Shown: piece after piece, positions 38,088 to 47,638 of the stretch
How the letters are laid out: every line of letters starts with the position of its first letter
How positions within the stretch are numbered: position 1 is the first letter of the stretch
Source of the DNA: Gemmatimonadota bacterium
GTDB lineage: Bacteria > Gemmatimonadota > Gemmatimonadetes > Gemmatimonadales > Gemmatimonadaceae
Assembly: GCA_031127085.1 (NCBI GenBank)
Contig: JARIEY010000004.1
Span: 1 to 47,685 of the forward strand
DNA: 47,685 nt
Direction: 5' to 3'
Position numbers and translations under genes: made by a program
Notes under the pieces: model-generated
Seen by the model: only the letters and a program-made list of their open reading frames with translations
Told to the model about the DNA's origin: nothing
Database searches by the model: none

Positions 38088-39548
38088 CTACTTCTCGCCC
38101 AGCGGAAGATCGAGCCGCACGCAGACGCCCGGCTGATCCTGACGGTTCTCAATGCGGCAGCGCCCACCGACGCCACGCACGCGCAGCGCCACGAGCGAGA
38201 GACCCAGCCCCATTCCCGGCACCTCGCCGGTAAGCGCCGGGTCGCCCTGCACATACGGTTCTAGCGCACGCTGCAACTGGCGCGGCGTGAGGTGCAGCCC
38301 GTCATCCTCGACCTCAATGCGCACGCCGTCGCTCCCCGTCATGGCGAGCCGCACCGTCACCGACGGACGTCCCTTGGGGTGAAAACGCCGGGCGTTCTGC
38401 ATCAGCTCCCGCAGGATCACCTGCATCGAGACTTCCCCCAGCGGGATCTTCGTGTCGGGCATCCCGGGCGCCACCTGCATAGCAATGGCGTCCACGTTCT
38501 GCGCCGCCGCGGCGTCACGAACGAGGAGCACCAGCCGGCTGAGCGACATCGGCACCTCGCGCGACGCGCCATCCTCCACGAACCCAAGCACGTCCTGCAC
38601 CGCCTCGTTCAGCCGGTTCGTGGAGTTCACCACGATATCGAGCATTTGGCGTTCACGCTCTCCGGGCAGCTGCGCGCGCACGCTGGCGAGCCGGTCCACG
38701 GCGCCGACGATTCCCGTCAACGGCGTGCGCAGCTTGTGCGACACCAGTTCGTGGAACTCAAACTGCCGCATCTGCCGCTCCACCTCGTGCGTCACGTCGC
38801 GCAGACTCACGATCACCAGACCGTCGGGATCGTCGGGATGCTGGTGCGGCGTCACGAGCACCCACTCACGGAAGTGCCCTCCGGGCACCGTGCGGACCAG
38901 GTGGAATGGCAGTCCGCGCCCTTCGTTGCTGCCCCAACGTTCCCACGCATCGGACGGCTCCGGCACGCTCTCGCGCGCCAGGCGCTCGATGAACGGCCCG
39001 CCGATCGGGTCATCCCCGCCGAAACCGAGATACCGACGCGCCGCCGCATTGCAGTGGAGCACCCGGTCCATCCGGTCGAGCAGCACGAACCCATCGTTCG
39101 CGTGCTCCACGGCCCAGAAGAACCGGTCGTGCTCCGCGTTCGCCCGCTGCTGCACCCCGAGCCGCACCAGCGCCGACACCCGCGCGCGCAGTTCCCATTT
39201 GTTGAACGGCTTGCCAAGAAAGTCGTCCGCCCCTGCCTCCAGGCCGCGCACCATCGAGTCGGTGTCGGCCAGGGCGGTGACCATCACGATGGGAATGCTC
39301 CGCTGGCGCGGCTGCTCACGCAGCCGACGACAGACTTCGAAGCCGTCCATGCCCGGCATCATCACGTCCAGCAGAATCAGGTCCGGATCGAACGTCTGCA
39401 CCTTCTGCAGGCACTCGGGCCCCGACGCCGCCTGAGCGATCTCGTAGCCCTCCCTGGCGAGCGCCGCCTCCACCGTGGCGCGCCCAGAGGCGGTGTCGTC
39501 CACCACCAGCAGGCGGCTCTGTCGCGGTGCGGTCTTGTTGAGAATCAC
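38088..39548 (-). CDS. Response regulator/sensor kinase hybrid (REC-PAS-HisKA-HATPase)
   Basis: This 486-aa protein starts at a GTG. The REC domain (about residues 12-128) is complete: LLVVDDTASG, phospho-acceptor in LILLDVMMPGMDG, and signalling Lys in DDFLGKPF. A PAS domain spans about 140-255. HisKA has the phospho-His in FHELVSHKLRTPLTGI, with Lys where Glu is usual. The ATPase domain has ELMQNARRF (N box), DDGLHL as a weakened G1 box (His where the second Gly is usual), and GMGLGLSL (G2). It probably receives phosphate on its own REC from the neighbouring kinase. Its GTG overlaps the upstream kinase stop by four bases. Confidence 0.9.
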   Translation of the reverse strand: MILNKTAPRQSRLLVVDDTASGRATVEAALAREGYEIAQAASGPECLQKVQTFDPDLILLDVMMPGMDGFEVCRRLREQPRQRSIPIVMVTALADTDSMVRGLEAGADDFLGKPFNKWELRARVSALVRLGVQQRANAEHDRFFWAVEHANDGFVLLDRMDRVLHCNAAARRYLGFGGDDPIGGPFIERLARESVPEPSDAWERWGSNEGRGLPFHLVRTVPGGHFREWVLVTPHQHPDDPDGLVIVSLRDVTHEVERQMRQFEFHELVSHKLRTPLTGIVGAVDRLASVRAQLPGERERQMLDIVVNSTNRLNEAVQDVLGFVEDGASREVPMSLSRLVLLVRDAAAAQNVDAIAMQVAPGMPDTKIPLGEVSMQVILRELMQNARRFHPKGRPSVTVRLAMTGSDGVRIEVEDDGLHLTPRQLQRALEPYVQGDPALTGEVPGMGLGLSLVALRVRGVGGRCRIENRQDQPGVCVRLDLPLGEK

Positions 39549-41872
39549 GCGGGTACTCCCCCTTCTGGCATGCCGATGTAACCGGCAATCCGGTCGCGCA
39601 GCGCGCGCAGGGCGATCGGCTTGGTGACATAGTCCGTGGCACCTACCCGGAGGATCCGCTCGCGATCCCCGGACATGGCGTGCGCGGTGAGCGCAATAAT
39701 TGGAGTATCGGAAAACTGGGGCTCGGTTCGAAGTTGCCGGATCGCGGCCACCCCGTCGAGGCGCGGCATCTGAATGTCCATCAGGATCAGTGCCGGGTGC
39801 AGCGCGCGCGCCTTCTCCAAAGCCTCTTCGCCGTCGCGCGCCACTTCCACACGAAAACCCTTCGCCGTCAGGTAGGCGAGGAACGTCTTCACGTTGCCGC
39901 CATCGTCTTCGGCGAGCAGCACCGTCAGCGGGCTCCCGCCAGAGCGGCGCCCCATCATCGCCGGCGCGATGTCCGGCGCGCTGGAGGCGCCGGGCGACGC
40001 GATACGGCGCGGCAGGCGCACCGTGAAGGTGCTGCCCACGCCGCGCACACTTTCCACATCGACGGCGCCGCCCAGCACCTCGGCGAGTTTCGCGACAAGC
40101 GCAAGCCCGAGACCGGTTCCCCCGTATGGGCGCGCCAATCCCTGATGCACCTGCTCGAACGGGCGGAAGATGCGCGTCATCTCCTCGGCGGTCATTCCGA
40201 TGCCGGTATCGGAGACGCGGATCACCACCGCCTCGCGCGCGGTATCGACTCCCACCTCACATCGCACGCGCCCACCCGCGTCGGTGAACTTCACCGCGTT
40301 GTTCAGCAGGTTGAGCAGGATCTGACGGACCATACGTCCATCCGTCTCGATGGTCACGGCCTCGGCTGGAAGGTCGCGCTCGATCCGAATCGAGCGCTCA
40401 CGCGCCAGCTGCTCCACCAGGCGCAGCGCCGCCTCGGCCTGACCCACGACGTCTTGCGCCGCGAACTCCGGCTTGAGCTTGCCCGCGCCGATCTTGGCCA
40501 GATCCAGAATATCGTTGATCAGCGACAGCAGGTGCTGCCCGCTCTCCTCCACCAGGGCCAGCTTCTCGTCCTGGCTGTCGGTGAGTGGCCCCCACACCCC
40601 TTCGCGCGTCGCCTCGGTCATTCCGAGAATCGCGTTCAGCGGCGTGCGCAGTTCGTGGCTCATCGCGGCGAGGAACTCGTCCTTCGCACGGGCCGCCCGC
40701 TCGAGGTCCGCGTTCACGTCGGTCAGGTCGGCGGTGCGTTCCTCTACCAGATGCTCGAGCTGTGCGCGCTCGCCGGCGAGGATGCGCCGCGCCTCGACGA
40801 AGCCCGAGATGTCCTTCAGCGCGCCGGCGTGCATTGGAGGCTCCCCGTGGCCGCCGGGGTCAATCATCAACTGGTGGCGCACGTGGCGCCAGGTGCCACC
40901 CACCGTCACCACGCGGTATTCCGTGCCGCACGTCACGCCGGCGTTCGCCTGTGCCCTGGCAAGCTCGGCGCGCACCCGCGGCAGGTCCTCGGGATGCACC
41001 CGCGCGAGCCACCATTCCACCGGGTCAGCCGACGGCGGCATCTCGCCCACCGGCAGCTCCGTGCCGGTGCGCTCGGCGTCGAATCGCCCCGTGGAAAGGT
41101 CGATCGCATAGGCCACATCGCACGCGACGCTCGTGGAGAGGCGCAGCCGGCGCGCCAGCCGGTAGAGTTCGTGCTCTTTGCGCGCGACTTCCCGCATCTC
41201 ACGCATCCGGAGCAGGCGCAGCGCACGGTACTTCTCGGTCGCCGCCAGCGTCTCGGACAGCCGCGCCAGGCAGTAGGCCTCGGCGGCGCGCAGTTGAGCG
41301 CCGTCCCCGCAGCGCACCACGTGGCAGACGCCCAGCACCTCGCCACGCCACAGCACCGGCATCACCAGCGTGTAGCCGCGCGGCCGCGCCGGACAGGCCG
41401 CGCACGGTCCTTCCGGCACGGGGAGCATCAGCGCGTCGCTGGCCCCCATCGCCCACTCGTCGTGCGCCACCAGCGCCCGCGATTCCACGGCGCGCTGGAT
41501 CAGGGCATCGTTGCGCGCCGAGAGGGGCTGGCAGCGGCCATCTGGCGGACGTGTTTCATAAGCAGTGATCAGCCGTCCGTAGGGATCGGCGCGCAGAAAG
41601 GTGAACAGCAGGTCGGCGAACTCCGGCAGCGTGACCACCAGCACATCCGCATTCTCGATGCCCAGCTGGGCGTCTTCGATGGATCGTGCGATCGCATCGT
41701 ACTGCTCCCAGAGCGCCGCCAGCGGATCGCGCTCGGCGCGGAGCGGATCCGGCAGGGCATCCGCCGCGCTCGCCGCCAGTGCGTCGTCGAGCAACGCATC
41801 CGTCAACGCCTCGCGCGACGCCTGGCCGACCAGCGCGGCGAACGGCACGCCCGCACCGTTCATCGGTGCCAT
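39545..41872 (-). CDS. Hybrid histidine kinase (GAF-PAS-HisKA-HATPase-REC)
   Basis: This 775-aa soluble kinase has an N-terminal GAF-like domain (about residues 60-215, including RGYTLVMPVLWRGEVLGVCHVV and a PCAACPA cysteine cluster). A PAS/PAC domain covers about 245-365, ending in GALKDISGFVEA, and a short coiled coil follows. HisKA has the canonical AAMSHELRTPLNAILGMTE, the ATPase has LLNLLNNAVKFT, VSDTGIGMT and GTGLGLALV, and a C-terminal REC has AEDDGGN, LILMDIQMPRLDG and DYVTKPI. No membrane segment is present, so it senses a cytoplasmic signal. Its start overlaps the stop of the regulator gene by one base. Confidence 0.93.
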   Translation of the reverse strand: MAPMNGAGVPFAALVGQASREALTDALLDDALAASAADALPDPLRAERDPLAALWEQYDAIARSIEDAQLGIENADVLVVTLPEFADLLFTFLRADPYGRLITAYETRPPDGRCQPLSARNDALIQRAVESRALVAHDEWAMGASDALMLPVPEGPCAACPARPRGYTLVMPVLWRGEVLGVCHVVRCGDGAQLRAAEAYCLARLSETLAATEKYRALRLLRMREMREVARKEHELYRLARRLRLSTSVACDVAYAIDLSTGRFDAERTGTELPVGEMPPSADPVEWWLARVHPEDLPRVRAELARAQANAGVTCGTEYRVVTVGGTWRHVRHQLMIDPGGHGEPPMHAGALKDISGFVEARRILAGERAQLEHLVEERTADLTDVNADLERAARAKDEFLAAMSHELRTPLNAILGMTEATREGVWGPLTDSQDEKLALVEESGQHLLSLINDILDLAKIGAGKLKPEFAAQDVVGQAEAALRLVEQLARERSIRIERDLPAEAVTIETDGRMVRQILLNLLNNAVKFTDAGGRVRCEVGVDTAREAVVIRVSDTGIGMTAEEMTRIFRPFEQVHQGLARPYGGTGLGLALVAKLAEVLGGAVDVESVRGVGSTFTVRLPRRIASPGASSAPDIAPAMMGRRSGGSPLTVLLAEDDGGNVKTFLAYLTAKGFRVEVARDGEEALEKARALHPALILMDIQMPRLDGVAAIRQLRTEPQFSDTPIIALTAHAMSGDRERILRVGATDYVTKPIALRALRDRIAGYIGMPEGGVPA

Positions 41873-42540
41873 CAGGCCTCCACGAACGCCACCGTCGCGG
41901 CGGCCGACAGCGGCAGCCGCCCGCGCATTGCCTTGAGTTTGCGGCGCAGCGTGCGCACATGCATTCCCAGCATCGCCGCGGCCACCGTGCGATTATACCC
42001 CGTGCGCTCAAGCGCCACGGCGATGAGACGCTCTTCCGCCTGCGTCACATTCAGGTCCTCCAGCACAACGACGGCTGGCACCACCGGCGCGCTCCCACGA
42101 ACGTTGCCCGGCAGCGCCGTGACCGTCTCGTCGGCCGTCGCCCCACCCGCGTCGGCCATCACACGGTGGATCGCACTGCGCACCACGCGCGGATCGACGG
42201 GCTGCAGCAGGTACTGCCGCGGCGCCCCATCGGCCAGCGCCACCACGTCGGTGGTCCCGGCTGTTGTCGAGAGCACGAGCACCGGCGTCTCCAGCCCTTC
42301 GGCGCGCAGCAGGCCTGTGAGTTCGACGCCATGCTGCGTCGGCACCGGATGCCGCGTCACGACCACGTCGACCGTCTCGTGATACAGCACGGCGAGGGCA
42401 TCATGCACCGACGCCGCGCTGCAGGTGTCATAGCCGCTGTGACGCACGATGTTCTCAAGAACGGCGCGCATTTGCGGATCGGGTTCAACACATAGAATGC
42501 GGGCGTGGCGCACTTCGAGCGCCTGGGCAGCGACTGCCAT
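41872..42540 (-). CDS. Fis-type DNA-binding regulator with a pseudo-receiver domain
   Basis: This 222-aa protein has a receiver-like domain at residues 13-130, a linker, and a Fis-type HTH at about 172-212 (EERLIAVALERTGYNRTVAAAMLGMHVRTLRRKLKAM). The receiver keeps the acidic start (CVEPDP) and the Thr region (VLSTTAG). The phospho-acceptor position in DVVVTRHPVP is Arg63 instead of Asp, and the conserved Lys in YLLQPVDP is Gln113. It resembles RegA/ActR-type regulators but should not be phosphorylated in the usual way. It is the first gene of the operon, with GGGGAAG 7 bases before the ATG. It may respond by protein contact with the downstream kinases. Confidence 0.9.
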   Translation of the reverse strand: MAVAAQALEVRHARILCVEPDPQMRAVLENIVRHSGYDTCSAASVHDALAVLYHETVDVVVTRHPVPTQHGVELTGLLRAEGLETPVLVLSTTAGTTDVVALADGAPRQYLLQPVDPRVVRSAIHRVMADAGGATADETVTALPGNVRGSAPVVPAVVVLEDLNVTQAEERLIAVALERTGYNRTVAAAMLGMHVRTLRRKLKAMRGRLPLSAAATVAFVEA

Positions 42541-42914
42541 GATCGGCTTCCCCGTGGTGATGATGAGCCAGTGAGTCAGACCTGTGCTCACCCTGCATTG
42601 CACGTTGAGTGCCGTCCCGGCGGCAGCAGCGGCAACGGCGTGATGTGACGGCCGCTACTCCCACCGTGACGGCAACGCTCCCCGAAACCCCACGAAACGG
42701 GCGCGCGCGAAGGCCGCTGCGCCGTGCACGGGGCATTCCGTCTCCCTCCGCGCGGCCAGAATGCCCCGCCACCGGATGGACGAATTGTCCCTCCCCCGCG
42801 CACGCCGACGTGGCATCCCGCGCGCCCCGGGCCCCGACGTGGCAACCGCCGCCCCCCGCGCACGCGGAGGACGGCGGCAGAACTCACGCAGGCCGCGCAG
42901 CGGCGGCCAATGCG
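42541..42914. other. Non-coding gap between the regulator and the class V aminotransferase
   Basis: No open frame with coding character was found in these 374 bases. The region holds the Shine-Dalgarno and promoter area of the signalling operon. It also has two direct copies of CCGACGTGGCA (42805-42815 and 42834-42844, 29 bp apart), and a perfect 10-bp inverted repeat CGGGGCATTC/GAATGCCCCG (42729-42738 and 42759-42768) that may end the aminotransferase transcript. Confidence 0.6.
42729..42768. terminator. 10-bp inverted repeat downstream of the aminotransferase
   Basis: CGGGGCATTC pairs perfectly with GAATGCCCCG across a 20-base loop. It lies about 150 bases after the aminotransferase stop and 190 bases upstream of the regulator gene. 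A terminator or a regulatory site is possible. Confidence 0.4.
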
Positions 42915-44204
42915 CTACGCGATACCCTTGGCGATGGCCTTCAGCACGGCGTCGCCGAACGTGTCGATCTCGTCGACGCTCGTGTAGACGCTGGGGGTGA
43001 TGCGAATGCCGCTGAACTCCGGATGGCCAATCGGCGTGGTGACGATCTTGTGCTTGTCCAGCAGCCACCCGCCCAGCTTGCCGGGTTCGATGCCGTCGAC
43101 GCTGAACATGCAGATGGCGCCGGCGCGATCGTTGTCGAGCGGCGTCAGCACCTTCACCCTGTCACTCGCGGCAAGCAGGCGCTTGGCCCACCGGTCGCGC
43201 AGATAGCGGAGCCGCGCGATCTTGCGCTCGGGGCCGATGCCGCGACTGAACGCGAGCGCGGCGGAAACGGCGTTGAAGTTCGCCTGGGGGTGCGTGCCGA
43301 TCTCCTCGTACTTCCGGATGTTCGCGGCATTGCCCTCGGTGGAGCCCATCAGCGACCAGAGCTGCGGAATCTTGGCCTTGCGCACATACAGGAATCCGGT
43401 GCCGATGGGGGCGTGCGTCCACTTGTGGAGCGACGTGCCGTAATAGTCGCAGTCCAGCTGGTCGCGCGTGAACGGGAAATGGTTGAACGCGTGCGCGCCG
43501 TCGACAAAGACCTCGATGCCGAGCGGGCGGGCCATCTGCACGATCTGCCGCACGGGGAGGATCTGCCCCGTCAGGTTGGTGATGTGCGTGACCTCGATCA
43601 CCTTGGTGCGCGGCGTGATCGCCTTCCGGAACTGCTCCACGATGTACTCGTCCGACGGCGGCGGCACCTTGAAGGAGATCTGGTTCAGCACGATCCCCTC
43701 GCGCTTCACGCGCTGCTGCCACGACGTGATCATGCGCGGGTAGTTCTGGTTGGTCAGCAGCACCTCATCGCCGCGTTTGAGATCGATGCCGAAGATCATG
43801 ATCTCATTGGCTTCGGAGGCGTTGCGCACGACCGCCATTTCCTCCGGATCGCAGCCGAAGTCGCGGGCCAGGTCGCGCCGCGTGCTCTCCATCCGCGGCT
43901 CGAGCACGCGCCACATATGCTCGACCGGCAGTTCGTTGGTGAACTTGAGGTCGCGGATCATCTGCTCGAGCACGTGCGACGGCGTCGGCGAAATCCCCCC
44001 GTTATTGAGGTTGATCATCGTGCGATCGGCGTCGAAGGCGCGCTGGATCTGCGCCCAATACAGCTCGTCGTCGGCGAGCGCCGCCGGGGCGCGGTCGCCC
44101 GCGATCACGTTGGCCTTGAAGAGCTGTTCCATGGCATTGGCGCGAAACGCGGGAAGCGTGACGCCGGCAGCCGTGAGGCCCGCAAGGAAGTTGCGACGGT
44201 CCAT
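42915..44204 (-). CDS. Tat-exported class V aminotransferase (isopenicillin-N-epimerase-like)
   Basis: This 429-aa protein begins MDRRNFLAGLTAAGVTLPAF, a twin-arginine signal. The PLP fold-type I class V domain follows: INLNNGGISPTPSHVLEQM, VVRNASEANEIMIFGIDLKRGDEVLLTNQNYP, the cofactor Asp in VFVDGAHAFNHFPF, and the Schiff-base Lys in YYGTSLHKWTHAPIGTGFLYVR. Relatives are annotated as isopenicillin-N epimerases or cysteine desulfurase-like proteins; the substrate is unknown. PLP-enzyme export through Tat fits folding with cofactor in the cytoplasm. An open frame to 44264 exists, but the signal peptide fixes the start. It appears monocistronic. Confidence 0.9.
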   Translation of the reverse strand: MDRRNFLAGLTAAGVTLPAFRANAMEQLFKANVIAGDRAPAALADDELYWAQIQRAFDADRTMINLNNGGISPTPSHVLEQMIRDLKFTNELPVEHMWRVLEPRMESTRRDLARDFGCDPEEMAVVRNASEANEIMIFGIDLKRGDEVLLTNQNYPRMITSWQQRVKREGIVLNQISFKVPPPSDEYIVEQFRKAITPRTKVIEVTHITNLTGQILPVRQIVQMARPLGIEVFVDGAHAFNHFPFTRDQLDCDYYGTSLHKWTHAPIGTGFLYVRKAKIPQLWSLMGSTEGNAANIRKYEEIGTHPQANFNAVSAALAFSRGIGPERKIARLRYLRDRWAKRLLAASDRVKVLTPLDNDRAGAICMFSVDGIEPGKLGGWLLDKHKIVTTPIGHPEFSGIRITPSVYTSVDEIDTFGDAVLKAIAKGIA

Positions 44205-44367
44205 GGGAGTGAGAGACGGTGGACGGTGTACGAGCGAGGACGGACTCAGGGGGCGACGCTTCACACGCGTCAGCTGCGGCTAATATGCGGACTCACGGGC
44301 GATGCGCCAGCCGACGCCCCTTTCCCTTGCTCTCTTCTATCTCCCCTCTCCCATCTCCAGTCTGCCG

Positions 44368-45513
44368 TTACGGCACTACAACCAACCCGGCCTCGCCCCC
44401 AAATTCGTCCGTCACCTTGGTGAGGTTGGCCGGCGCACGCCACTCGCTGCCGTTGATGCGAACCGCCACACGCTGCGGGCCGGGGGGCACGTGGACCTGC
44501 AGTTCCCACGCATCGAGCACCCACTGCATGCGCACCGGCTGCCAGGCGCTGAAGCTCCCGTACGCCTCCACACGCGCCGACGCGTTGGCCAGCACGCGGA
44601 TGGTCATCGTCGCGCCGCCGTCGGGATCGCCCCGCATCAACACGATGGCGCCGTAGCGGTCGATTTGCAGCACGGCCGGATCGCGCCGCAGAAAGAGCAC
44701 GCGCACTGATGCCGAGAGGAACTTCGCGTCAGGCAACGCTCGCAGGGGATCGGCCAGCTGACGCCCCCCCGAAACCGTGAGCGCGATGACCGGCGACAGA
44801 TAGAAGGCCGCGGCAAGCATCATCGCGCGGTCGTTGACCTTGGTGGCCACCCCTTCGCCGCGACGCAGCGTACCGACGGCAGCCAGATCCAGGGCCGCAA
44901 AGCTCTGCTGCACCGTGACGGTGGCATCGCGCACGATATACGGCCCAACCGGGCGTCGTGACGGCAGACTGCTCGCGGCGAGCAGGTCGGTGTCGCGCGA
45001 GCGGGTGACAACACCGGCCACCGTGCCAGAGGTCCGCCCGTACTCACCCCACGCCCCAACATCGTAGGCCGACGACTGCAGGTTGGTCCCCGTGCGGTTG
45101 GTCACGCCCGCCGCGGTGCCAGCCCAGACGCCGCGCGGCCCGTAGGCGTGTTGTACCCGGAGAAACGTGGCGCCATTGCCGCCGCTCGACAGCGAGTTCA
45201 ATCCAAAGAGCGCGCCAGCGATGCCCGACTCCACACGCCAATGCGGCTGCCGCGCAAACTGATAACGGATCGCGAGCAGTCCCTGCGCCGTGTCGATAGA
45301 GTCGCGGGCGGCGGTCATTGACCCGCTCGCCGTGGTGACGACCCGTTCGTGCGTCCTGCGCCATGTCAGTCCCAACAGGGCGGCATTGCGCGACCGCGTA
45401 CCGGCCTGCCGAACCTCGGCGACGCCCGCTTCCACGCGAATCTCATCAGGGGCCTGCGCCGCCGCGGTGCGGAACGCGGCGATCAGCAAGCAGGCGGCAA
45501 CGGGACCCCTCAT
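44368..45513 (-). CDS. Secreted barrel-like protein with C-terminal glycogen-binding-like fold
   Basis: This 381-aa protein has a signal peptide (MRGPVAACLLIAAFRTAAAQ). About 270 residues of alternating beta-strand pattern follow (for example TWRRTHERVVTTASGSMTAARD, VWAGTAAGVTNRTGTNLQSS), as in outer-membrane barrels. Residues about 295-381 match the AMPK/isoamylase N-terminal (E-set) layout: IRVLANASARVEAYGSFSAWQPV, then VPPGPQRVAVRINGSEWRAP. A similar and better conserved fold occurs in the second gene of the same operon. It does not end in the aromatic residue typical of barrels, so membrane insertion is inference. It lies 10 bases after the previous gene. Confidence 0.7.
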   Translation of the reverse strand: MRGPVAACLLIAAFRTAAAQAPDEIRVEAGVAEVRQAGTRSRNAALLGLTWRRTHERVVTTASGSMTAARDSIDTAQGLLAIRYQFARQPHWRVESGIAGALFGLNSLSSGGNGATFLRVQHAYGPRGVWAGTAAGVTNRTGTNLQSSAYDVGAWGEYGRTSGTVAGVVTRSRDTDLLAASSLPSRRPVGPYIVRDATVTVQQSFAALDLAAVGTLRRGEGVATKVNDRAMMLAAAFYLSPVIALTVSGGRQLADPLRALPDAKFLSASVRVLFLRRDPAVLQIDRYGAIVLMRGDPDGGATMTIRVLANASARVEAYGSFSAWQPVRMQWVLDAWELQVHVPPGPQRVAVRINGSEWRAPANLTKVTDEFGGEAGLVVVP

Positions 45514-45523
45514 CGCATGGACG

Positions 45524-46162
45524 TCACGGCCTCCGCGGATTGGTGAACGCGGACGCAGCGGGGGCGGGTGGCAGGAGCGACATCACCCCGCGGGCGCGCA
45601 GATCGAGTGCAGCTTCCGGCGCCCAGCCGGCGGCGACGTCGCCTTGGACCGACTGCGCAAGAGCGTAGAGCTGCACGTTCGTGGCCCCGCGCGCCATCAG
45701 GTCAGTAACCGTCTGGGCAGCGCGTGCCGGCGGCAGCCCCTTCGCGACGAGCTCAGTGAGCACGCCGAGCGGAAGGGCCAGTGACCGGCTGGGCCAGGCC
45801 GCGCGCATCTTCTTCAGAATGGGCGCGGGAACGCCGACATAGAGCGCGTCGGCGCCGGCAGCAATCTCGTCCTCGCTTGGGTTGGGCGCGAGCTGATCGC
45901 GCGCAACCTGCAGCCGCTTTCCAAGGGCGGCGACGGCGTCCGTAATGCGCTTCGGCGTTGCCCGCTTGGCGATCCCCTCGTTGGCCTTGGCGATCAAGAG
46001 GCCCTCGGGAAGCCCAATCGCTCGCGCAGTCACGAGCTCACGCTCGACGGCACGTCGGACACCAGCGTCCGCCGTCGCATCGAGGCGCGCCGCTTGCGCC
46101 GACGCCGCGGAGACCGCGGTGAACGAGGCAAGCGAGAGAAGGGTCAGTCGACGAATTGTCAT
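45524..46162 (-). CDS. Secreted alpha-helical protein of unknown function
   Basis: This 212-aa protein starts with a signal peptide (MTIRRLTLLSLASFTAVSAASAQA). The rest is mainly helical, with segments such as RRAVERELVTARAIGLPEGLLIAKANEGIAKR and LGVLTELVAKGLPPARAAQTVTDLMARG. I do not recognise a family. The region GLPEGLL, GVPAPIL and GLPPARA recurs, hinting at an internal repeat. Its ATG overlaps the previous gene's stop by one base (TAATG). It is the third gene of the ECF operon, so a periplasmic role in the same response is inferred. Confidence 0.7.
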   Translation of the reverse strand: MTIRRLTLLSLASFTAVSAASAQAARLDATADAGVRRAVERELVTARAIGLPEGLLIAKANEGIAKRATPKRITDAVAALGKRLQVARDQLAPNPSEDEIAAGADALYVGVPAPILKKMRAAWPSRSLALPLGVLTELVAKGLPPARAAQTVTDLMARGATNVQLYALAQSVQGDVAAGWAPEAALDLRARGVMSLLPPAPAASAFTNPRRP

Positions 46163-46746
46163 TACGGTGCCTGCACGATAAGTACGGAGTTTTCACGCCC
46201 GAAGTCCAGATCACGCGAGCGCTGGGCGCGCGGATCGGTCATCCAGGTGGTGCCATCCACGACGAACGCATACACATGGCGCCCCGCCGACAGCGGGACC
46301 GTAACGCTCCACGTCCCCGCCTCGCGACCGGGCTCCAACAGCGTCGCGCTCTGGGACCAGCCGTTGAAGTCGCCTACCAGCGCCACCTGCGCCGCCCGTA
46401 CGTCACGCAGGGTGAACTGCACGGGGACGGGCATCGGCTCGCCATTGCGCGACGCTGGAACGACGGGGAGCGCCTGGGCCGCGGGCGCCCCGGCCAGCTG
46501 CGGCGCTCGCTCGTCGACCGTCGTGGCCTGCCGCGCCACGAAGCCGAGCAACAGTCCAGCGGCGGCCAGCGTCGCCGTGGCCGTCAGTGAGAACGGCGCG
46601 GAGGGCCACGTGACACCGCGCCACCACCGGCGCGGGCGCCCTTCAACCGTACTGAGAATGCGCGAGACGAGCCGCGGGTTGTTCCCCGCGCGCCGCCGCA
46701 GCGCGTCCGCCGCCCGCTCAATCAGTTCGTCATGTGCTTCAATCAC
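46162..46746 (-). CDS. Single-pass membrane protein with periplasmic glycogen-binding (AMPK/CBM48-like) domain
   Basis: This 194-aa protein has a short cytoplasmic N-terminus (residues 1-50, helical, with EAHDELIERAADALRRRAG), one transmembrane helix (about 52-71, FSLTATATLAAAGLLLGFVA), a linker, and a C-terminal E-set domain (about 108-190). That domain carries the AMPK-CBM pattern AQVALVGDFNGW, GTWSVTVPLSAGRHVYAFVVDGTTWMTDP. It stands where an anti-sigma factor is expected, one base after the ECF sigma gene and with AGGAG 7-8 bases before its GTG. The zinc anti-sigma HxxxCxxC motif is absent. A role as sensor and anti-sigma factor is inference; a simple carbohydrate-binding protein is the alternative. 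Confidence 0.8.
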   Translation of the reverse strand: MIEAHDELIERAADALRRRAGNNPRLVSRILSTVEGRPRRWWRGVTWPSAPFSLTATATLAAAGLLLGFVARQATTVDERAPQLAGAPAAQALPVVPASRNGEPMPVPVQFTLRDVRAAQVALVGDFNGWSQSATLLEPGREAGTWSVTVPLSAGRHVYAFVVDGTTWMTDPRAQRSRDLDFGRENSVLIVQAP

Positions 46747-46747
46747 G

Positions 46748-47377
46748 TCACATCTCCTGTTCCAGGCGGGTGCGCAGCGCATCACACGCGCGCTTGACCC
46801 GCATACGAAGTGCCGACAACCGCACTCCGGTGATGACCGCCATATCCTCGTACGACAAATCCTCCACGTGCCGCAGGAGGAACGCTTCTCGCTGCTCCGA
46901 CGGCAGCTCCTCGAGCGCCGCCTCGACCGCTTCCATAAAATCCCGCGAGGAGTCGGGCGACTCCGCCGCCACGGCGGGCAGCTCGCCCGTGACCACCAGC
47001 GATTCCCGCCGACGCCGACGCTCCCGCGCCGTGCGGCACCGATTCGCCAAAATGCGGAACAGCCAGGGTTCGAACCGCGCATCCGGCCGGAACTGCCCCA
47101 GGTGGTCGTAGACACGCACGAACGTGTCTTGCACCGCCTCCTCCGCATCCTCCTCCTCGCCCAGCATGTACCGCGCATACCGCAAACAGCGCCCGTGGAA
47201 GAACTCCACGAGTTCCGCAAACGCCGCAACGTCCCCGTTGCGCGCGCGCAACGGAATGGCGGGATCGATGTCGGTACTCGGTCGCACGGGAATCGGATCG
47301 GCGGGTTGGATAGCCCACAATACCCCGTGCGCCTCCTCCCTCGCTACCGTCCCCACCCGCCGTGCGCGCGATGCCAT
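46748..47377 (-). CDS. ECF-type RNA polymerase sigma factor
   Basis: This 209-aa ECF sigma factor has region 2 at about residues 46-115 (AFAELVEFFHGRCLRYARYMLGEEEDAEEAVQDTFVRVYDHLGQFRPDARFEPWLFRILANRCR) and region 4 at about 150-200 (ALEELPSEQREAFLLRHVEDLSYEDMAVITGVRLSALRMRVKRACDALR). No region 3 or extra C-terminal domain is present. The first about 40 residues are not conserved. The ATG at 47377 has GGAG four bases before it; a GTG at 47287 is a possible later start without a Shine-Dalgarno. It heads a four-gene operon with the glycogen-binding-domain proteins and may control that operon. Confidence 0.93.
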   Translation of the reverse strand: MASRARRVGTVAREEAHGVLWAIQPADPIPVRPSTDIDPAIPLRARNGDVAAFAELVEFFHGRCLRYARYMLGEEEDAEEAVQDTFVRVYDHLGQFRPDARFEPWLFRILANRCRTARERRRRRESLVVTGELPAVAAESPDSSRDFMEAVEAALEELPSEQREAFLLRHVEDLSYEDMAVITGVRLSALRMRVKRACDALRTRLEQEM

Positions 47378-47638
47378 CAGACTCCGCCGAGAGAGACCAC
47401 CCTACCCTTCCCTCCACGCCTCGGACTGCCACACCGACATGGCGATCCGCATCTACTTTCAAGCCATTGCCAATAAACACTTTAGACATCTGCCACTACC
47501 CCGGACACATCGTCCTCATCCGGATCGGCTACACTTGCACATACCCGCCGTGGCCGTCTGGCGTCACATTCATTATCGGCTGGCGCCCGCCAATCACCCG
47601 TGGCATTCTGTGGGACACTTCCCGATCAGGAATAGTTC

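Follow-up and report, generated by a model that had tools for sequence, protein, structure and literature searches.

What could an extracytoplasmic function (ECF) sigma factor in a Gemmatimonadota genome be listening to, and through which proteins? The question is raised by four genes, SIG, CBM, HEL and BAR, on the minus strand at 44368-47377 of the window, the 47,685-nucleotide stretch of DNA that was analysed. A first-pass annotation had read this locus as four genes with gaps of at most 10 bases, encoding an ECF sigma factor, a membrane protein that crosses once, bears an AMPK/CBM48-type domain on its periplasmic side and lacks the usual zinc anti-sigma motif, a secreted helical protein, and a barrel-like secreted protein with a divergent second copy of that fold at its end. 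It had also proposed an HMM search of both domains and a survey of the gene order. The four-gene cassette is confirmed by a check of the open reading frames, and each protein proved to be of the kind described. The intergenic distances are 1, -1 and 10 nt: SIG and CBM are separated by 1 nt, CBM and HEL overlap by 1 nt, and 10 nt lie between HEL and BAR. Folds, topology, linkage and motif were established by computation. Immediately 3' of BAR is a class-V aminotransferase gene with a Tat-like signal (MDRRNFLAG; 42915-44264, minus strand); among 20 Gemmatimonadaceae loci checked it adjoins the cassette at 18, and it was not found at L049 and L050. Further along the same strand, two adjacent genes (39545-42603), read by eye, encode a hybrid histidine kinase and a protein that resembles a response regulator and ends in a Fis-type helix-turn-helix. 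A defence-system search returned no match.

SIG (209 aa; 46748-47377, minus strand, as are all features below) matches Sigma70_r2 (8e-15) and Sigma70_r4_2 (9e-15) in Pfam and TIGR02937 (1e-26, above its cut-off) in NCBIfam. Pfam finds regions 2 and 4 and no further sigma region in the 209 residues, as in ECF factors. CBM (194 aa, GTG start; 46162-46746), a putative membrane anti-sigma factor, begins with a cytoplasmic segment of residues 1-51 (46594-46746). Its one hydrophobic segment, at about residues 52-72 (46531-46593; hydropathy 1.79), has a K/R-rich stretch on its N-terminal side, the positive-inside charge of a single transmembrane helix, and is followed by a periplasmic E-set domain at residues 107-192 (46171-46428). 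That domain belongs to the CBM48 sequence family by its Pfam matches to AMPK1_CBM (1.3e-10) and CBM_48 (2e-7), both above cut-off. The protein has no cysteines and thus lacks the HxxxCxxC zinc anti-sigma motif. The cytoplasmic part, which the first-pass annotation took for a 50-residue helix, reads as two short helix motifs.

Does CBM hold SIG? Its cytoplasmic segment is short and carries no anti-sigma domain recognised by Pfam, which would suit a reading without an anti-sigma role for CBM: something else would control SIG, and the other three products would make up a complex in the envelope whose genes are simply transcribed along with SIG. We consider this very improbable, as CBM adjoins SIG across the phylum and beyond and relatives with a zf-HC2 anti-sigma domain lie beside ECF genes. 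In other phyla, CBM48-domain relatives next to ECF genes have an N-terminal zf-HC2 domain above the Pfam cut-off (L177, 7e-6; L178, 1.7e-5); zf-HC2 in the relatives L170 and L201 is below it. In these proteins zf-HC2 is followed by a PxxLxxRVMxxV helix, which is the second of the two cytoplasmic motifs of CBM, and then by the same transmembrane-CBM48 architecture. It is mainly because these relatives share its architecture beside ECF genes that we take CBM to be an anti-sigma factor, a role for which the sequence comparisons are supporting evidence. CBM also shows the general features of such factors, with a sigma gene as neighbour, a membrane anchor and a cytoplasmic N-terminus. Together with the phylum-wide adjacency to SIG, the zf-HC2 relatives support the earlier pairing of an ECF sigma factor with a membrane partner. 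Covariation between SIG and CBM (mean-field DCA and inverse-covariance, n=247 paired sequences) placed the top inter-protein pair in the cytoplasmic segment, but the segment showed no enrichment, with 24 of the 100 top pairs vs 30% of columns.

The two remaining proteins were characterised by structure prediction. HEL (45524-46162), a secreted protein with a near-invariant KxxEGxxK motif, has no Pfam or NCBIfam family; AF2 with a small alignment gave an all-helical model, a chain of helices (pLDDT 89.7, pTM 0.80). A Foldseek search with this fold found nothing below 1e-3, and the best VIA-align match, to designed helical repeats (Z 10.5), was set aside as under the tool's meaningful level for helical models. 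BAR (44368-45513) likewise has no Pfam family at E up to 1 and no NCBIfam family. Its AF2 model, also from a small alignment (pLDDT 79.7), consists of 14 long strands and a C-terminal beta domain. The 14-stranded barrel, residues 24-276 (44686-45444), aligns with CymA over 237 residues (Z 21.0, rmsd 2.9 A) and with OmpG (Z 20.4), both of them monomeric 14-strand porins, CymA for cyclodextrin. BAR therefore models as an outer-membrane porin-like fold. The C-terminal domain, residues 289-381 (44371-44649), is below Pfam detection and was matched to the CBM domain profile-to-profile (hhalign 98.6%, E 6.8e-16, BAR 303-381), so that the proposed HMM search recovers the copy in CBM directly and the copy in BAR by profile-profile comparison only. 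At L201 the equivalent domain of BAR is itself a Pfam match (CBM_48, 9e-11). Outer-membrane barrels with an even number of strands have both termini in the periplasm. Since the modelled barrel is even-stranded, the E-set of BAR should be periplasmic and share that compartment with the E-set of CBM.

The four genes travel together well beyond this genome. Of the genomes sampled, 122 of 148 in the family and 160 of 249 in the phylum have relatives of CBM, often in several copies, and a sigma gene directly precedes CBM for 232 of the 254 phylum proteins with enough upstream sequence. Among 124 sigma/CBM pairs with long enough flanks, HEL is present in 120 and BAR in 105; the set is therefore not unique to this genome. 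These loci were found via CBM, so the counts describe its companions and not the frequency of the other genes without it, and some overlap between fetched regions was kept in the 124. The survey of gene order showed conserved linkage in several arrangements: SIG-CBM-HEL-BAR at 85 loci, SIG-CBM-BAR-HEL at 14, BAR upstream of SIG-CBM-HEL at 6, SIG-CBM-HEL with no BAR found within the flank at 15, and SIG-CBM alone at 4. The order CBM-BAR-SIG-HEL in families f4 and f5 accounts for several of the CBM genes that do not directly follow a sigma gene. A joint function best explains genes that stay together despite reordering. Two apparent fusions were left out of the counts: one of SIG and CBM (L101) seems to stem from a frameshift where the sigma gene ends, and one of HEL and BAR (L109) retains the BAR signal peptide. 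Outside Gemmatimonadota, the matches listed include a sigma gene paired with CBM, at some loci together with HEL, in Eisenbacteria, Desulfobacterota, Chitinispirillaceae, Desantisbacteria, a Clostridia MAG and others; the HEL matches listed there are weak (~1e-6 to 1e-12) except in Eisenbacteria, and several of the loci listed have no BAR. At a Desulforhabdus locus SIG is closely preceded by a separate gene for a lipoprotein-like CBM48 protein (L168:4651-5355), possibly a stand-in for the BAR E-set.

What SIG may transcribe was approached through the DNA upstream of its gene. There, the blocks GTGACG and GGGTAT, spaced by 15 nt (47541-47567), are conserved in 11 of 11 genomes of the genus while the surrounding DNA varies. 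Relaxed to GTGAC-N16/17-GGGTA, this promoter-like motif has exact copies upstream of SIG in 55 of 243 unique regions vs 0.25 in shuffles, and is present with at most one mismatch in 106 vs 6.7; it was derived from the alignment of the genus, whose 11 regions are among the 243. Genome-wide, the extended form has 21 exact sites in the 11 genus genomes vs 0 in a reversed control, and a housekeeping promoter is unlikely because the motif is so rare. Autoregulation is usual for ECF factors, and from this we infer that SIG, and not a paralogue, reads the motif, although the regulon could instead belong to a different ECF factor that recognises the same promoters.

Sites away from the operon point to surface proteins. 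Four of 10 such sites in the genus precede SusC-type genes, and with at most one mismatch the motif occurs upstream of 28 of 70 SusC genes on the coding strand vs 6 on the opposite strand (reversed sequence gave 2 and 5 hits); the 70 regions are not independent samples, since many of the genes are orthologous. In three genomes of a sister genus it stands 9 nt before the start of SIG and 8-11 nt before that of eight predicted lipoprotein genes, distances that suggest leaderless transcripts; the background is higher there, with 3 to 5 reversed-pattern hits per genome vs 7 to 14 sites. A divergent DUF4382 lipoprotein gene carries a motif copy in another family. These SusC-type receptor and lipoprotein genes are a candidate surface-protein regulon. 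At L153, L156, L167 and others, divergent genes for DUF4382 lipoproteins or outer-membrane proteins upstream of SIG face its promoter with their own motif copy. All three sister-genus genomes also have a conserved protein family of ~175 aa whose start lies 34-37 nt after the motif (L496, L507, L519; no Pfam hit in the one member scanned). In two genus genomes an FKBP-type PPIase lipoprotein gene begins ~100 nt after the motif (L478, L480).

The nature of these candidate targets bears on what is sensed. An envelope-quality sensor that monitors the assembly of outer-membrane proteins or lipoproteins, like sigma-E/RseA, with E-sets that bind protein and no sugar, would be in keeping with the many unrelated lipoproteins and outer-membrane proteins among them, with the FKBP-type PPIases, and with the absence in CBM of a conserved AMPK glycogen-site lysine. 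We regard this reading as rather unlikely: the cassette has no protease or chaperone gene, stress sensing needs no dedicated barrel, and SusC receptors suit uptake equally well.

Direct glycan sensing, in which, as in RsgI, the anti-sigma factor itself would use its CBM48 domain to bind a fragment of an alpha-glucan or similar polymer that came in through the barrel, can be judged from the residues of the domain. Across 247 relatives of CBM, W130 and W146 are invariant and position 168 is aromatic in 208. The domain has the FNxW and DGxxW tryptophans of the CBM48/AMPK beta domain. Tryptophans assigned by eye as equivalent to AMPK beta W100 and W133 are kept in 247 of 247 and 203 of 247 relatives. 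By the same assignment, the lysine corresponding to K126 is lost and the residue corresponding to N150 is kept in 60%. From its sequence the CBM E-set thus appears to keep only part of the glycogen contacts, the two stacking tryptophans and not the lysine. The CBM48 match, the invariant W130, the mostly aromatic position 168, the SusC-type transporters among candidate targets and the cyclodextrin porin as best fold match of BAR (with OmpG scoring equally) are consistent with a glycan ligand. The lost lysine and partly kept asparagine, the lack of a glycoside hydrolase within the cassette, and the second E-set on BAR, which this reading leaves unexplained, make it improbable. Carbohydrate sensing by the cassette is unproven and appears less plausible than the signalling model that follows.

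With moderate confidence, we propose that the cassette relays a signal across the envelope, with CBM as anti-sigma factor and BAR as transducer. The short cytoplasmic segment of CBM would hold SIG while its E-set reads the periplasm; BAR would expose its barrel at the surface, with the C-terminal E-set reaching into the periplasm. If ligand or envelope state changed at the barrel, the contact between the two E-sets, in which periplasmic HEL probably takes part, would be altered. We infer that this altered contact would release SIG, probably via proteolysis, and freed SIG would transcribe its own operon and the genes for SusC-type TonB receptors and lipoproteins from GTGAC-N16/17-GGGTA promoters. 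Counting against this model are the loci that lack BAR and the covariation, which did not single out the cytoplasmic segment. The signalling interpretation of the first-pass annotation is partly supported; the porin-like barrel with its periplasmic-side E-set, the distant relatives with zinc domains, the promoter-like motif and the candidate regulon are additions to it. More tentatively, such cassettes may be a widespread, non-TonB kind of cell-surface signalling: a porin-like transducer and an anti-sigma factor would meet through homologous periplasmic E-sets, with a helical adaptor, and control SusC receptors and lipoproteins. We found no description of the cassette in open-licence papers, subscription papers being beyond the scope of the search; as far as could be searched, it is widespread in Gemmatimonadota, which are soil and water bacteria, and undescribed.

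The cassette repeats the logic of cell-surface signalling (reviewed in PMC9249621) with E-set domains and a porin-like barrel. Similar to the Fec, Fox and Pup systems, it combines an outer-membrane barrel, an inner-membrane protein of putative anti-sigma function and an ECF sigma factor, and one fold is found on both the outer-membrane protein and the anti-sigma factor, the two copies facing each other in the periplasm, STN there and, as predicted, E-set here. In Fec-type signalling the signalling domain of the transducer binds the C-terminal subdomain of the anti-sigma factor, and both have the STN fold (PMC11637429). Unlike those systems, BAR is porin-like with no detected plug or STN domain, an E-set/CBM48 domain at the C-terminus of the barrel replaces STN, and HEL is an additional helical periplasmic protein. 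Because Pfam finds no TonB receptor or STN domain in BAR and no FecR domain in CBM, we regard the cassette as resembling cell-surface signalling and not as a member of it.

Resemblances to other systems are partial. With class I (ASDI) and zinc anti-sigma factors, CBM shares the PxxLxxRVMxxV helix before the transmembrane segment and has relatives in other phyla with zf-HC2, but has itself no cysteine and only ~50 cytoplasmic residues. The likeness to the CBM48/AMPK beta glycogen-binding domain lies in the Pfam match and the paired tryptophan motifs; the glycogen-site lysine is lost and the domain sits in an anti-sigma-like protein and an outer-membrane barrel. RsgI proteins have a short cytoplasmic segment, one transmembrane helix and an external carbohydrate-binding-type domain, and CBM is laid out in the same way. 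PMC12203970 presents RsgI proteins as polysaccharide-sensing anti-sigma factors of Clostridium thermocellum. Unlike RsgI, the cassette lies in a Gram-negative envelope, with an ECF and not a SigI-type sigma factor and with a partner barrel, and Pfam gives no match to the RsgI N-terminal anti-sigma domain in CBM. Most known routes from the surface to a sigma factor across both membranes rely on TonB receptors that carry STN domains. If the proposed model is true, the cassette would be a second, independently built route of the same logic, placing homologous domains at the inner and the outer membrane. It would be common in a phylum with little-studied regulation and would offer a testable regulon for surface uptake systems.
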